Origin: Acetobacteraceae bacterium
GTDB lineage: Bacteria; Pseudomonadota; Alphaproteobacteria; Acetobacterales; Acetobacteraceae
Assembly (NCBI GenBank): GCA_027483125.1
Contig: JAIXVH010000444.1
Coordinates: 1 to 34,860 of the forward strand
DNA: 34,860 nucleotides
Direction of reading: 5' to 3'
The translations under genes and the position numbers were made by a program. The notes under the pieces are model-generated. The model made no database searches and was not told the origin of the DNA. It worked only from the letters and a program-made list of their open reading frames with translations. Positions 4,402 through 26,610 of the stretch are shown here, one piece after another. Each line of letters opens with the position of its first letter. Within the stretch, counting starts at the first letter, position 1.

Positions 4402-5466
4402 ATGCTGCGATTCAGCAACTTCCTGTTTCCCGAAAGCCGCGATCCGGCGCACGACCAGGATGTGATCCAGGAATCGCTGGAGGAAGCCCGCCTGTGCGAC
4501 GAGCTGGGCGTGGAGGTGCTGTGGCTCGCCGAGCACCATTTCGACGGCAATTGCGCCTATGTGGACCCGGTCACCTTTGCTGCCGCCGTGCTGTCCTGCA
4601 CGAAGCGCATCAAGGTGGGTTTCGCTGTGGCGCAAGTCTCGCTGCATCACCCCACGCGGCTCGCCGAGCAGATGTCGCTGCTCGACAATATCGGGCGCGG
4701 CCGCGTGATCGTGGGGTTGGGGCGCGGCACGGCTTACAACGTCTACGAATACCAGGGCTATGGCATCCCGGCCGAGGAGGCGCTGGAGCGCTACGAGGAG
4801 GCCGAGCAGATCATGCTGCGCGCCTGGACCAGCCCCGATGGCTTCGAGCACCAGGGCAAGTTCTGGCAGATCCGCATGCCGCATTTCCGCCCGCAGCCCT
4901 TCACCCAGCCGCACCCCTATCTGATCCGCGCGGCGAGCAGCGAGGATGGCGCGCTGCACCTGGCACGCCGCGGCGTGCCCTTCCTGATGAATGTGCAGTC
5001 GCTGGAGACCACGGCCACGCGGCTTTCCGCCTATCAGCGCGCGATGGCCGAGAGCGGCTTCGACGCGGCCCATATCGCCCGCTGCATGGATGAGAGCTGG
5101 GTCTGGCGCAATGTCGTGGTGGCCGAGACGGATGCGCAGGCGCGTGAGATCGCCATCCCGGCCTTCGAGGCGATGCAGGCGCATCGCAAGGCCCTGCGCG
5201 AGCGCATCTATGCCGAGCAGGGCGTGATCATGAAGAAGGAAACCGCGCCGCCCGCCCGCGTGAATCCCGACCACGCGCTGATCTGCGGCAGCCCCGAGAC
5301 GGTGGCCGCCCGGATGGCCGAGATCGACGCGACCGGCGTGGGCGGCGTGATCTGCGCCTTCCGCCTGGGCCCGATGGATGCGGCGGTGACGCAGCGCAGC
5401 ATCCGCCTGTTCATGGAGCGCGTGGCGCCGCGCTTCCAGGCGCCGGTGGCCGCGGCCGCCGAGTGA
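4402..5466 (+). CDS. LLM-class (luciferase-like) flavin-dependent monooxygenase
   Basis: This 354-residue protein is of the bacterial luciferase-like superfamily, a TIM-barrel flavoenzyme group that uses reduced FMN and oxygen. Visible family blocks are EARLCDELGVEVLWLAEHHF near residues 32-52, VGFAVAQVSLHHPTRLAEQ near 74-92, and GRGRVIVGLGRGTAYNVYEY near 99-118. The AEHHF motif is typical of the alkanal-monooxygenase-like branch. The frame is open for more than 1 kb upstream, but the ATG at 4402 is chosen because GGAGGG (4391-4396) precedes it at good spacing and the family's N-terminal strand starts here. A flavin reductase partner is not adjacent. Its stop codon abuts the stop of the convergent cupin gene with no gap. 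The substrate is unknown. Confidence 0.92.
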   Translation: MLRFSNFLFPESRDPAHDQDVIQESLEEARLCDELGVEVLWLAEHHFDGNCAYVDPVTFAAAVLSCTKRIKVGFAVAQVSLHHPTRLAEQMSLLDNIGRGRVIVGLGRGTAYNVYEYQGYGIPAEEALERYEEAEQIMLRAWTSPDGFEHQGKFWQIRMPHFRPQPFTQPHPYLIRAASSEDGALHLARRGVPFLMNVQSLETTATRLSAYQRAMAESGFDAAHIARCMDESWVWRNVVVAETDAQAREIAIPAFEAMQAHRKALRERIYAEQGVIMKKETAPPARVNPDHALICGSPETVAARMAEIDATGVGGVICAFRLGPMDAAVTQRSIRLFMERVAPRFQAPVAAAAE

Positions 5467-5799
5467 TCAATCCACGATGAACAGCGTCGCACCGGTGGCG
5501 GTGCGGCTGCGATGCGGCGCGTCCCCGAAATCGGAGACGTGATAGCTGGTGCCGGGTTTCATCACGAATTCCCGGCCATCCTTCAATTCGCTGATCATCT
5601 CGCCCGTCAGCACCAGCAGCACATGGCCGCGGTCGCACCAATGGTCGGCCAGGTAGCCGGGCGAGTATTCCACCATGCGGATGCGCGCATCGCCCATCAT
5701 CACCGTGCGCCAGGTGGCGTGGCCGGTCTCACCGGGGTGCTGCGTGGCGGGCACGGCGGACCAATCGGTGACGGTGAAGGCATGGGCGGGAAGTTGCAT
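5467..5799 (-). CDS. Small cupin-fold protein (DHCW-cupin-like)
   Basis: This protein of about 110 residues has a single-cupin pattern: VEYSPGYLADHWCDRGHVLL followed by LTGEMISELKDGREF, PGTSYHVSDFG and PHRSRTATGATLFIVD. It resembles the small 'DHCW motif' cupins, whose function is not established. Histidines in DHWCDRGH and a late PHRS could bind a metal. The frame extends further upstream, but the ATG at 5799 directly precedes conserved-looking sequence and leaves 108 bases to the flavoprotein gene. It is the last gene of the minus-strand creatininase/flavoprotein group, so a supporting role in that pathway is possible but unproven. Confidence 0.75.
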   Translation of the reverse strand: MQLPAHAFTVTDWSAVPATQHPGETGHATWRTVMMGDARIRMVEYSPGYLADHWCDRGHVLLVLTGEMISELKDGREFVMKPGTSYHVSDFGDAPHRSRTATGATLFIVD

Positions 5800-5907
5800 G
5801 CGGCAGGCTCCGTGGAGTTGGCGGTCAGCGCACAAGAAAACGCTGCGCTGTGCAAGCATGGCTGTCATTCCTGGGCCAGCCGCGCGCCCACCCATGGGCA
5901 GCGCCAC

Positions 5908-7314
5908 TCACTCCAGGATTTCTTCCACCTCGCCCAGCGTGCCGAACAGGTAATGCGGGCGCGGCTTGGCGGGCGTCCAATCCGGATCCTCGAAGCCCAA
6001 CATTTTGCCGGGGTTCATCAGCCCCTTGGGGTCGGCCTCGCGCTTGAAGGCTGCCTGGCCGGCATCCACGCGCTTCATCCCGCCTTCCTCCAGCGTGAAG
6101 ACATGCGGGTTGAAGATCGGCGCGCCGGCGGCGTCGTGGATGGCGATGATCTCCGCCAGGCGCTCTTCGGTGGTGTATTTCACCAATTGCAGGCCGAAGC
6201 ACACCACATCGCCGCCATAGCGCACGAATTCGAGGTGCATCGGCACCTCGTCGCCGAACTGCGCCACCATCTGTTCGATCAGCGCGAAATGGTTCGGCGG
6301 CGGGAACAGCGTCTGCAGATAGGTATAGGAACGGTCGGTCTTCAGCACCTGCAGCGTGGTGTGGTTCCAGCTGTGTTCGTAGAGCGGCACCGCAGCCTGT
6401 TCCGTCTCGCAGCGATAGAGTTCGCGCCCGCCCATGCGCGTGACCATGGGCGCCACCACCTCGATATATTCGGGGGCCAGCATGCCCAGCACCACATGCA
6501 TCCCCTCCGGGATCACGCCCTCGAGCGCCTTGAAATGCCGCTGCGGGATGGGTGCGGCCACGACGCAGGCCAGCTTCTTCACCACGCCGTCGCTCGCCAC
6601 CAGGGCTTCGGCGAAACGCGCGGCTTCCAGCAACGTCGGGAAGGCCCAGAGCAGGTCCACCCAGTCATGCGCGGGTGCCAGCGGCATCTCCAATTCGGTG
6701 ATGACGCCATTGGTGCCATAGGCGTGGTTCACGCGCGCAATGTCATCGCCGCGCAGTTCCAGCACGCGGGGCTCGGCCTCCATGGTCAGCACGCGCAGGC
6801 CCAGCACGTTCCCGGCCTCGCGCAGCATGCCATAGGTGCAGCTGCCGATGCCCGAGGAACCGCCGGCGATGAAGCCGCCGATCGTCGCGGTGCGCTTGGT
6901 GCTGGGGTGGAAGCGCAACTCGCCGCCCACGGCCGCGCGGGTGTGGCGGTCGATGTCGATCAGCTTGGCACCGGCCTGGATGCGCGCGCGGCCGGGCTTG
7001 CACCACAGCACCTGGTCCAGCCGCGACAGGTCCAGCACCACGCCGCCCTTCAGCGGCATGGCTTGCCCGTAATTGCCGGTGCCCGCGCCGCGCGGCGTGA
7101 GCGGGATGTCGCGCGCGAAGCAGGCGCGCATCACTGCGCGCACCTCCTCCTCATTGCGGGGCAGGGCGATGACATCGGCGCAGGCATTGTTCAGCTGCGC
7201 CTTCAGCACCGGCGAATACCAGAAGAAGTCGCGCGATTTCTGCCGCACCATGGCCGGATCGGTGATCCATTCGATCTGCGGCAGTTCGGCCATCAGGCCG
7301 GCGATGTCGTGCAT
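5908..7314 (-). CDS. FAD-binding oxidoreductase (VAO/PCMH family), copy A
   Basis: This 468-residue flavoprotein is of the vanillyl-alcohol-oxidase/GlcD type. The PCMH FAD-binding domain shows PLTPRGAGTGNYGQAMPLKG at residues 71-90, then RFHPSTKRTATIGGFIAGG and a glycine-rich stretch leading to GLRVLTM. The C-terminal half ends with the FAD-oxidase signature LMNPGKM. Members oxidise alpha-hydroxy acids, alcohols or aldehydes; the substrate here is unknown. An N-terminal KSRDFFWYSPVLKAQL motif and a later SWNHTTLQVLK motif are shared with the gene directly upstream, with which it is co-linear. The two genes join through TGATG, so translation is coupled. The pair may be a duplication or may form a hetero-oligomer. 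Confidence 0.9.
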   Translation of the reverse strand: MHDIAGLMAELPQIEWITDPAMVRQKSRDFFWYSPVLKAQLNNACADVIALPRNEEEVRAVMRACFARDIPLTPRGAGTGNYGQAMPLKGGVVLDLSRLDQVLWCKPGRARIQAGAKLIDIDRHTRAAVGGELRFHPSTKRTATIGGFIAGGSSGIGSCTYGMLREAGNVLGLRVLTMEAEPRVLELRGDDIARVNHAYGTNGVITELEMPLAPAHDWVDLLWAFPTLLEAARFAEALVASDGVVKKLACVVAAPIPQRHFKALEGVIPEGMHVVLGMLAPEYIEVVAPMVTRMGGRELYRCETEQAAVPLYEHSWNHTTLQVLKTDRSYTYLQTLFPPPNHFALIEQMVAQFGDEVPMHLEFVRYGGDVVCFGLQLVKYTTEERLAEIIAIHDAAGAPIFNPHVFTLEEGGMKRVDAGQAAFKREADPKGLMNPGKMLGFEDPDWTPAKPRPHYLFGTLGEVEEILE

Positions 7315-23494: not shown

Positions 23495-24211
23495 GTGAGC
23501 ACCGTCAGCGCCATCGCGCCCAGCACCTCCAACCCTGTTCCGCGCGCCCAGCCCGGCGCCCGGCAGGATTTCGCGGCCCTGCTGCACCAGCGCGGCGTGC
23601 CCGAAGCGCCGCGTGGCCGCGCCTGGGAAAGCGTGCCGAACAGCGCCTTCCGCCAGCGCATCGCCCAGGCCGAGCGCAGCGCCGAACATGCACAGGGCGG
23701 CTATGCTGTGCGCAACCCGCACTCCGGCGCGCTGGGCCGCTATCAGTTCACGCCGGTCACCTTGCAGGATCTCGGCTGGCGCAATGCCCAGGGCGCCTGG
23801 ACGCAGTTGGCCGAGCGCCATGGCGTGCGCTCCGAACAGGATTTCCTGGGCAATCACGCGGCGCAGGAAAGCGCCATGACCATGTTCTTGCGCCGGGTGG
23901 AGGTGCAGTTGGACCGCAACGGCGCGGCTGCCCAGCAGGGCGCCACGCTGCGCGGCATTGGCGGGCAGGAGATCACGCTGACCGAATCCGGCCTGATGGG
24001 CGCGGCGCATCGCCGCGGCGCGGGCATGGTCGCGCGCTGGATCAACCACCGCACCCACACACCGGACGCCCCGCTGAGCGCAGCCCAGCGCGCCGCCTTC
24101 GCGCAGGTCGAACGCCGCCTGCAGGATTTCAGCGCCGTCGCCTACGCGCCCACGCGCGCTGTGCCCCCGGCGCGTGCCATCGCCGCCACCACAGGAACCC
24201 CCGCATCATGA
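23495..24211 (+). CDS. Uncharacterised protein with lysozyme/transglycosylase-like motif
   Basis: This 238-residue protein is not firmly recognised. The central part, RIAQAERSAEHAQGGYAVRN (about 55-74) followed by NPHSGALGRYQFT (74-86), resembles lysozyme-fold peptidoglycan hydrolases, where a glutamate (E60 or E64 here) is followed by a G-x-YQF segment. The later part (HAAQESAMTMFLRRVEVQL) is helical. The first 50 residues are low-complexity and proline/alanine-rich with no classical signal peptide. The start is a GTG at 23495 without a good ribosome binding site, 24 bases after the phosphoesterase stop. It overlaps the degenerate GGDEF gene (ATGA), which links it to the c-di-GMP genes that follow. 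A peptidoglycan-cleaving role is a tentative inference. Confidence 0.6.
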   Translation: MSTVSAIAPSTSNPVPRAQPGARQDFAALLHQRGVPEAPRGRAWESVPNSAFRQRIAQAERSAEHAQGGYAVRNPHSGALGRYQFTPVTLQDLGWRNAQGAWTQLAERHGVRSEQDFLGNHAAQESAMTMFLRRVEVQLDRNGAAAQQGATLRGIGGQEITLTESGLMGAAHRRGAGMVARWINHRTHTPDAPLSAAQRAAFAQVERRLQDFSAVAYAPTRAVPPARAIAATTGTPAS

Positions 24212-24873
24212 CCCTGACCGATACGCCCCCGCCGATGCTGCTCGCCGGCACTGGCCTGCTCGCCGCGAGCCTCGCCATGCTCTTCCCTGGCCCATGGCAG
24301 ATGGTGTTGCTGCTGGCCGGTGCCGCGCTGTGCGCGCCGGTGCTGGCGATGGCGCTGCGCCCTGCCACCGCCGAGGCACCGGCACTGCGTGACACCCGGA
24401 CCGGCCTTTATGCCCCTGCGGTCATGACCGCCGCCGCACCCGCCATGCTGCGGATGGCCGAGCGTCACACCACTGGCTCCTGCCTGGCATTGCTGCTGCT
24501 GGACCAACCCCGCGCGTCCATGGCTGAAGTGGCCTGGACCATCACCGCCGGCCTCCGCGCGACCGACATGGTCTGCCGCCATGGCGATGAAGGCTTCCTG
24601 ATTCTGATGCCCGATTGCGACCTGGGCGGCGCGTTCGAACGCCTGGACGAATTGCGCGCGCGCATCGCGACGCTCGATGGCGTGCGCCGGCTTTCCGCCA
24701 GTGTCGGCCTGGCCCCCGTCCTGGCCGGCGCGCCTGATCTGCATGAGGCGACGCGCAGCGCCACTGCCGCCGCCCGGACCGCGATCGCAGGCGGGCGCAA
24801 CCGCGTTGTGACCGCACCGATGGTTGAGCGCCTGCAGGTGATGCAGGGCGCGCTTCCTGAGGTGACGAGTTAG
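24208..24873 (+). CDS. Degenerate GGDEF-domain protein, membrane-anchored, I-site retained
   Basis: This 221-residue protein has two likely membrane segments (about 9-26 and 30-50) and then a shortened GGDEF-like domain. The active-site loop is GDEGF (126-130) instead of GG[DE]EF. The usual D-x-D-x-FK-x-x-ND metal/substrate segment is missing, replaced by LLLDQPRASMAEVAW. The inhibitory-site motif RATD (117-120) is intact and correctly spaced, five residues before the loop. A block from [11 protein letters not shown] to FERL (131-146) is almost identical to that of the intact cyclase downstream, as is GGRNRVVTA near 195. It is probably a catalytically dead paralogue that could still bind c-di-GMP. 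Confidence 0.8.
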   Translation: MTLTDTPPPMLLAGTGLLAASLAMLFPGPWQMVLLLAGAALCAPVLAMALRPATAEAPALRDTRTGLYAPAVMTAAAPAMLRMAERHTTGSCLALLLLDQPRASMAEVAWTITAGLRATDMVCRHGDEGFLILMPDCDLGGAFERLDELRARIATLDGVRRLSASVGLAPVLAGAPDLHEATRSATAAARTAIAGGRNRVVTAPMVERLQVMQGALPEVTS

Positions 24874-24936
24874 TTGCGCCCCGGCCCGGCACCCCGTTCA
24901 TCGAATCTTTACAATTCCGGGAGGAGGTTCGCATGC

Positions 24937-26610
24937 ATGATGACTGCCTTCCCCCGCGCCCGAAGTTATTTGTTGCCGATCCTGTTCCTGATGGGCATCG
25001 CCCTGGTGGGCATGGTCGGCACCGCGGCCGCCGTGCAGGGCTATCTGGCAGGCTTGCGGCTGCAGGCCGCCATCCTGGAGCAGGAGCAGGACCAGAACGC
25101 CGCCAATCGTCTGCGCGTCTCCCTGCTTGAGGCGGAGAGTGCGCTGCGTGGGCTGACCATCCACCAGCAGCCCGAACATATCGAACGCTTCCACCAGGCA
25201 TTGCAGTATATCGAAGGCGCTGAGGCACGACGGATCATCCAGCGCATGGATGCGATCCCGACAGCGCCCGCGGCGGCGCTGATCGAGCGCGCTGTGGCGA
25301 CGCATCGCAGCGTGGTTGGAATGCTGCTGGAGGGCCAGCGGGATCTCGCGATCGCCCCTGGCGCCGCGGCCGATGCCAATCGCGACATGGACAGCATTCG
25401 CGAGACCTTGTCGCAGTTCATCATCCTGCGCCGAAACTCCATCGCGGCGATGACCAACCAGCTGCGTCGCCAGCAGGCTCGGGTCCTGGCCCTTGTGGCC
25501 GGCAGCGCCGGCATCTCGGCCCTTGGCGTTTTGCTGGCCGTGGTGACGCTGCGCGTGCGGATGCGCGCCACCGCCGCCGTGCAGTCCGAACTGGCCGGGC
25601 GCAGTGCGGAGATGGGCGCGCTGTTGCAGATGAACGAGCTGCTGCAGGCCTGCGAGACCCGCGCCGATATCGAATGTGTCGCGGGCCACGCAGCCCAGGC
25701 GCTGGTCCCGGGCATGCCGGCCACGCTGTACATCTTCTCCAGCAGCCGTGACCGGCTCGATCGCGGACAGAACTGGCCCGGCGAAGGGCCGGAGCACATC
25801 ACCCCCACCTCCTGCTGGGCGCTGAAGCGCGGCCGGCCGAACCTGTGCGGCCAGGGTGTCACCTGCGACAGCGGCGGTTGCGCCGGCACCGCATTATGCG
25901 TGCCGATGGCCGCCCGCGGTGAGGTATACGGCCTGTTGCGCTTCAACAGCGATGACATCGCAGCCCTGGACCGGTTGCGCGAACACCGCAGCGCTGATGC
26001 GATGGCCGATGGGATGTCCATGGCACTGGCCAATCTGCAGCTGCGCGACAAGCTGCGCGGCGAGGCGCTGCGCGATGCCCTGACCGGTCTGCACAACCGC
26101 CGCTTCCTGGAGGAGGTGGGCCCCACCATCCTTCGCCAGGGTGAACGCCGCCAATCGCCCACCTGCATTGCCGTGCTGGATGCCGATCATTTCAAGCGCG
26201 TCAACGACAACTTCGGCCATGCGACCGGTGACGCGCTGTTGCGCGCCATCGCCGGCTGCATGACAGGCATGATGCGCGGCACCGATATCTGCGTGCGGTA
26301 TGGCGGCGAGGAATTCGTGATCTTGATGCCTGATTGCGACCTCGGCGGCGCCTTCGAGCGGCTGGAAACGCTGCGCGAGAGCATCGCCACAATGCATGCC
26401 GAAGGCGGCGCCTCGCCGGCGATCACCGTCTCCATCGGTGTGGCGATCGTGTCCCAGGGCTCACACACGCTCGATGATGCGATCCGCCAGGCCGATGAGG
26501 CGCTCTACGCCGCCAAGCAGGATGGCCGGAACCGCGTGGTGACCGCCGCCATGCTCGCGCGGATCAATGCGCTGGCGGCACCAGAAGCACGAGATCATCC
26601 CGGTGAATGA
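24937..26610 (+). CDS. Membrane diguanylate cyclase with GAF-like and GGDEF domains
   Basis: This 557-residue protein makes cyclic di-GMP from two GTP. Order: membrane segment about 9-32; helical periplasmic region about 35-180; second membrane segment about 183-205; GAF-like region about 225-375 with five cysteines (C293, C304, C310, C315, C321); GGDEF domain about 385-550. The catalytic motif is GGEEF (456-460), with the I-site RGTD at 447-450 for product inhibition, and [18 protein letters not shown] upstream is complete, so it looks active. A GGAGGAGG at 24920-24927 precedes the ATG at 24937. Its 3' end overlaps the convergent proB gene by 47 bases. The degenerate GGDEF gene ends 63 bases upstream. 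Confidence 0.92.

Follow-up and report, generated by a model that had tools for sequence, protein, structure and literature searches.

The P1–P2 locus

The window analysed here, 34,860 nucleotides long, is an entire contig (JAIXVH010000444.1) from the draft genome of an Acetobacteraceae bacterium (assembly GCA_027483125.1; 4.0 Mb in 487 contigs). Two neighbouring genes in it encode proteins of the GGDEF family: P1, a pseudo-GGDEF protein that is probably catalytically dead but keeps the residues of a predicted inhibitory site (I-site) for cyclic di-GMP (c-di-GMP), and P2, a probable diguanylate cyclase. Table 1 lists the features of the locus; the P1 and P2 copies of this genome are labelled G000.

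Table 1. Features of the P1–P2 locus with their positions in the window (dN/dS, ratio of non-synonymous to synonymous substitution rates)
Feature	Position	Strand	Basis
P1, pseudo-GGDEF protein, 221 residues	24208..24873	+	open reading frame; Pfam GGDEF 28.8 bits; dN/dS 0.11–0.25
P1 residues 9–50, probable membrane hairpin of two helices (9–23, 29–50)	24232..24357	+	helices of the model; hydropathy
P1 Arg86, aligned with WspR R198 (secondary I-site arginine)	24463..24465	+	agreement of three MAFFT modes
P1 residues 99–103, junction where the 12-residue metal/substrate segment of P2 is missing	24502..24516	+	P1/P2 alignment
P1 Arg117-Ala-Thr-Asp120, primary I-site RxxD	24556..24567	+	sequence; alignments
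P1 residues 126–130, GDEGF, degenerate catalytic loop	24583..24597	+	comparison of four orthologues
18-residue segment common to P1 and P2 (P1 codons 130–147)	24595..24648 (P2: 26314–26367)	+	45/54 nucleotides identical
P2, probable membrane diguanylate cyclase, GGEEF and RxxD intact	24937..26610	+	open reading frame; Pfam
Upstream gene, 238 residues, probably translationally coupled to P1	23495..24211	+	ATGA overlap

Loss of the catalytic site

P1 belongs to the GGDEF family (Pfam PF00990), its score of 28.8 bits passing the cut-off of 23.8, and we therefore treat its likeness to GGDEF domains as homology. P1-type genes were found in four of the nine genomes of the genus, all of which were searched: G000, G252 (98%), G249 (68%) and G188 (39%). 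An initial annotation of the window had called P1 inactive-looking, with GDEGF as its loop and the metal/substrate segment gone, and had placed an RxxD motif five residues before the loop. Both descriptions hold. Residues 117–130 read RATD-MVCRH-GDEGF, and the alignment with P2 shows P1 to be short of 12 residues of the metal/substrate segment. Five of the seven catalytic-site positions examined are lost in all four P1-type proteins. In the order G000, G252, G249 and G188, the metal aspartate is replaced by L, L, V and R; the asparagine is deleted throughout, and the aspartate of the GD pair is either deleted or alanine. The loop reads GDEGF, GDEGF, GEDGF and GPDRM in the same order, so that its second glycine has become D, D, E and P and its second acidic residue G, G, G and R. 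P1 thus has neither the metal aspartate, nor the substrate asparagine and aspartate, nor the GG(D/E)EF loop of an active diguanylate cyclase, and by the residues lost it is probably catalytically dead.

A sequencing error that would restore GGEEF, which the initial annotation had named as a possible refutation, is unlikely: the second assembled genome, G252 (L065; protein 98% identical, 26 base changes in 663), also has GDEGF, and the G249 orthologue (L066; 67–68% identical) has GEDGF.

Retention of I-site residues

The RxxD motif (R117/D120) of an I-site receptor is kept in all four P1-type proteins, and random loss of the motif among orthologues, the other refutation foreseen, was not seen. 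The I-site of WspR also uses a second arginine, R198, which is contributed by a neighbouring domain (PMC2270323). When the WspR sequence from the PDB was aligned with P1, R198 fell on P1 R86 in three MAFFT modes. This column is arginine in 4/4 P1-type rows and in all 14 P2-type rows included (of 18 in the domain tree), and of the three unrelated genus cyclases aligned with them, two lack an arginine of this type. P1 thus appears to carry the secondary arginine of a predicted I-site of the WspR type. By alignment, P1 R152, at +35 from the RxxD arginine, is likewise kept in all four P1-type proteins.

All three I-site residues (R86, R117 and D120) are kept in 4/4 P1-type proteins, compared with 7 of 35 other invariant polar columns (Fisher p = 0.014). 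The G250 sequence was excluded from this comparison, since its domain is partly out of frame, and was included in those restricted to RxxD. Retention of RxxD by itself is weak evidence for a receptor (p = 0.053, polar invariant columns), and the secondary arginine strengthens the support that the predicted site lends to such a role. The fold seems not to force retention of the I-site, since RxxD together with an XG(D/E)EF motif was reported for 44% of 28,254 GGDEF proteins (PMC3974145).

Selection on P1

P1 is under purifying selection. Within the trio of G000, G252 and G249 (G188 has no close relative for this purpose), dN/dS of P1 was 0.11 between G000 and G252, and 0.25 and 0.23 for each of these against G249; values for P2 were 0.15–0.17. 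In the G000–G249 comparison the ratio was 0.16 and 0.15 for the two domain halves of P1 and 0.70 for its membrane part. The 20 synonymous and 6 non-synonymous changes between the P1 genes of G000 and G252 (binomial p = 3e-7) argue against recent neutral decay.

Probable membrane hairpin and predicted structure

We modelled P1 with AlphaFold2 from a seven-row alignment (mean predicted local distance difference test score 80, predicted template modelling score 0.66), and because the alignment is small we place limited trust in the model. Two helices (residues 9–23 and 29–50) are predicted ahead of a GGDEF core, whose first core strand (91–98) is followed by the helix at 105–115 with none in between. 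Compared with solved structures, the model matched best the GGDEF domains of DosC, SadC, Dcsbis, PleD and WspR (Z 19.8–20.9), with DosC at Z 20.9 and a root-mean-square deviation of 1.6 over 144 aligned residues. PelD and BcsE were absent from the 60 sequence matches listed out of 62 and from the 50 rows listed from each of two fold searches, and may nonetheless be similar to P1. Membrane insertion of the hairpin is likely, and we say no more than likely because 19-residue hydropathy windows of at least 1.6 are present in the G000 hairpin and none in that of G249.

Distribution and gene order

Several of the nine genus genomes are incomplete (for example G251 at 69% and G249 at 82%), and a single absence is accordingly weak. 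P2 was found in seven of them: G000, G252, G249, G251, G072, G225 and G250. The P2 orthologue of G250 (L072, G250:C130, about 5170–6785) is split over two frames of 464 and 190 residues, a frameshift or an assembly error. The initial annotation had proposed a search for the same gene pair in other Acetobacteraceae; the pair does recur, in G252 and G249 as well as G000, but G188 has P1 without P2, four genomes (G251, G072, G225 and G250) have P2 without P1, and G141 has neither. Pairing of the two proteins is therefore possible and not obligate. The G188 protein is 165 residues long from its likeliest ATG and has no hairpin.

The order upstream gene–P1–P2–proB is seen in G000 and G252, and upstream gene–P1–P2 in G249, where the contig ends. 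The genomes without P1 show upstream gene–P2–proB (G251), upstream gene–P2 with proB elsewhere (G225) and P2–proB (G072 and G250), and G188 has upstream gene–P1–proB. In G000, G252 and G249 alike, the sequence ATGA holds both the start of P1 and the stop of the upstream gene.

Beyond the genus, P1 was searched for in 249 sampled genomes of the family (best 12 candidates per genome) and, with a four-row profile, in 395 sampled genomes of the order (best 7 per genome). The only matches lay in open frames of at least 508 residues (5 in the family genomes and 15 in the order genomes, partly the same genes), a provisional result; all 15 order-level loci read GGEE. A separate search for the N-terminal part of P2 covered 397 family genomes (best 5 candidates per genome), and the upstream gene was sought in 397, with matches in 48 of them (E <= 1e-15). 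At the 24 upstream-gene loci outside the genus, no GGDEF frame was found within flanks of 1.5 kb. The upstream gene had no family match in Pfam, NCBIfam or PHROG; by eye it contains a lysozyme-like GGYAVRNPHSGALGRYQFT motif.

P2 scores 143.5 bits against Pfam GGDEF, with weak matches to CHASE3, GAF_3 and GAF below the cut-off, and its I-site reads RGTD. The list of open reading frames starts it at a TTG (24874), and an ATG at 24937 or 24940 behind GGAGGAGG seems likelier by eye. Its 3' end overlaps that of the convergent proB (26564–26610). The C-terminal tail of the G188 pseudo-GGDEF protein resembles those of P2 proteins, perhaps only through being antisense to proB.

Origin of P1

When 27 GGDEF domains are placed in a tree, the three P1 proteins group with the G188 protein in a single clade (98/98; 98–99/98 across trees). 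This clade is nested within the P2 clade of the genus (100/100), and the P2 proteins that these genomes encode stand apart from it (100/99). Topologies were compared by the approximately unbiased (AU) test on a repeat tree of 26 rows, from which one unrelated cyclase had been dropped. A recent duplication of the whole domain, with P1 and P2 of G000 and G252 as one clade, was rejected (p = 3e-5), as was a grouping of the trio's P1 with the trio's P2 to the exclusion of G188 (p = 0.023). A duplication dating to the sub-clade's ancestor was not rejected (p = 0.13). With the G188 gene as a decayed P2 or P2 orthologue, p was 0.08, which is not a formal rejection, and long-branch attraction is possible; the alignment of the G188 protein to P1 has no gap over the deleted segment, and the protein joins P1 in the trees.

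A tree of proB and obg places G188 beside G000 and G252 with moderate support (85/95; the G249 assembly is without both genes), which fits a single duplication. Unlike proB and obg, the upstream gene of G188 (L073, G188:C32:26000-43369) pairs with that of G294, from another genus (81/83). The reading of a single duplication therefore rests on the proB/obg tree and the P1 tree. The pairing with G294 may reflect a transfer or a weak signal.

The match between the segment after the P1 loop and P2, on which the initial annotation had based a recent duplication or gene conversion, is real, but a recent event is not supported. Over the 54 bases, identity between P1 and P2 is 0.83, 0.87 and 0.85 within genomes and 0.80–0.87 between them (nine comparisons, three genomes), without a clear within-genome excess. 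Within the segment, PDCD(L/I) is shared with six of the seven P2 proteins of the genus (G250 reads TDCDL). The similar identities and the shared motif fit a common constraint rather than recent exchange, and an older local conversion of the segment is possible. The block is unusually constant in P1, in P2 and in the P2 proteins that lack a P1 partner.

Proposed function of P1

We consider it moderately probable that P1 is a dead, probably membrane-anchored GGDEF protein which selection has retained to bind c-di-GMP at its predicted I-site. In the common ancestor from which one sub-clade of the genus descends, the P2 GGDEF domain would have been duplicated, and P1 would then have lost its catalytic loop along with the metal/substrate segment while retaining R117, D120 and R86. 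c-di-GMP produced nearby, for which P2 is the natural source where present, would bind at R117/D120; the R86-equivalent arginine of a second GGDEF domain would close the site, and the ligand may clamp P1 either to itself or to some other GGDEF domain. In this way P1 could read out, or damp, local cyclase activity at the membrane.

Several observations weigh against this proposal. The first acidic residue of the loop is still acidic (E, E, D and D in the order given above), and F5 is kept in three of the four P1-type proteins. The membrane part is absent from the G188 form, and in G249 the hairpin is only weakly hydrophobic. When all invariant columns are counted, the I-site stands at 3/3 against 27/76 kept in all four (p = 0.051), and for the trio alone p rises to 0.066 (polar columns) and 0.135 (all invariant columns); from RxxD onward, all four P1-type proteins anyway retain 17 of the 33 columns that are invariant in P2. 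Since the retention test was framed after the pattern had been seen, and its four sequences represent about two lineages, we use it as supporting evidence only. The position that we take to be equivalent to PleD R390, at +31 from RxxD, is glutamate in the trio and leucine in G188, and so is unmatched.

We also considered other readings of P1. P1 might act as a product-feedback subunit in trans, an intercalated c-di-GMP dimer bridging dead P1 to live P2 and shutting P2 down through the heteromer. Such a bridge, modelled on the c-di-GMP dimers of WspR and PleD, which join one GGDEF domain to its neighbour, is conceivable because P1 and P2 both retain the residues of the primary and the secondary I-site, and we regard it as rather unlikely. 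If true, product inhibition of P2 would be tunable through the level of P1, by a partner encoded separately. Pairing could also be independent of c-di-GMP: dead heterodimers of P1 with P2 or other cyclases would block the shared active site, and the I-site residues would be inherited passengers. The two genes adjoin in all three genomes that hold both, P1 keeps RATD and the block that follows, and in E. coli specific heteromers of GGDEF domains are described, with the degenerate CdgI among the partners (PMC5635695). However, P1 occurs without P2 and P2 without P1, and the PDCD(L/I) block does not have to serve as an interface, since P2 proteins with no P1 partner share it; we judge this account somewhat improbable too.

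A membrane protein with a role unrelated to c-di-GMP, using the GGDEF fold as a scaffold and keeping RxxD and R86 for folding, would explain why so many invariant columns outside the I-site (27/76) are also kept in all four proteins, and degenerate GGDEF domains with other roles are described in YybT and CdpA (PMC3974145). It sits less well with the loss of 28 of the 35 other polar invariant positions, and we think it unlikely. That P1 is a duplicate decaying towards loss is very unlikely: the long branches of the clade and of G188, the varied loops and the shortened G188 form point that way, against which stand the low dN/dS of the trio, reading frames open in all four genomes (the TGA in G249 is the gene's own stop) and the ATGA overlap kept in three. 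The near-identical 18-residue segment, finally, would suit a recent duplicate or converted copy of P2, which the topology test on the whole domain and the between-genome identities of the segment make extremely improbable.

Comparison with known systems

Dead GGDEF receptors with intact I-sites, among them PelD, PopA, BcsE and CdgI, are already well known, and P1 is probably a fresh example of this established trick, not a new kind of system. Among the titles listed for degenerate GGDEF domains and inactive cyclases, none was on the P1–P2 gene pair. The GGDEF* domains of BcsE and PelD are described as missing the P-loop and α1 and still binding c-di-GMP at the I-site (PMC7439463). The BcsE domain (GIL) resembles P1 in these losses, in its diverged loop and in its kept I-site; BcsE, however, is a cytosolic multidomain subunit of cellulose secretion, whereas P1 is a single-domain protein. 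CdgI of E. coli likewise has a degenerate GGDEF domain whose I-site is intact; it binds c-di-GMP and makes contact with other GGDEF domains (PMC5635695), and its N-terminal part, common to DgcT and DgcX, differs from that of P1.

P1 had no receiver or GAF match in Pfam at E <= 1, and is therefore neither a PopA nor a PelD. PopA of Caulobacter, an alphaproteobacterial receptor with a dead GGDEF domain and RxxD, is built as two receiver domains followed by GGDEF (PMC10333796). PelD of Pseudomonas and Bacillus is, like P1, a membrane protein with a degenerate GGDEF domain, and binds c-di-GMP through RxxD and a further arginine (PMC7112168). Its architecture of three transmembrane helices, GAF and degenerate GGDEF (PMC10333796) differs from the probable two-helix hairpin of P1, and its third arginine, R402 (+35 from the RxxD arginine; +32 in B. 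cereus), differs from P1 R86; the P1 residue at +35 is R152. Close homologues of PelD with predicted activity are described as not readily found (PMC10333796). For P1 the transition from cyclase to probable receptor can be traced, as parent family, dead derivative and one-gene genomes all survive in one genus. P1 adjoins its living parent cyclase, unlike PelD, and with this pair it can be cleanly tested whether the product inhibition of a parent cyclase can be tuned by its own dead derivative.

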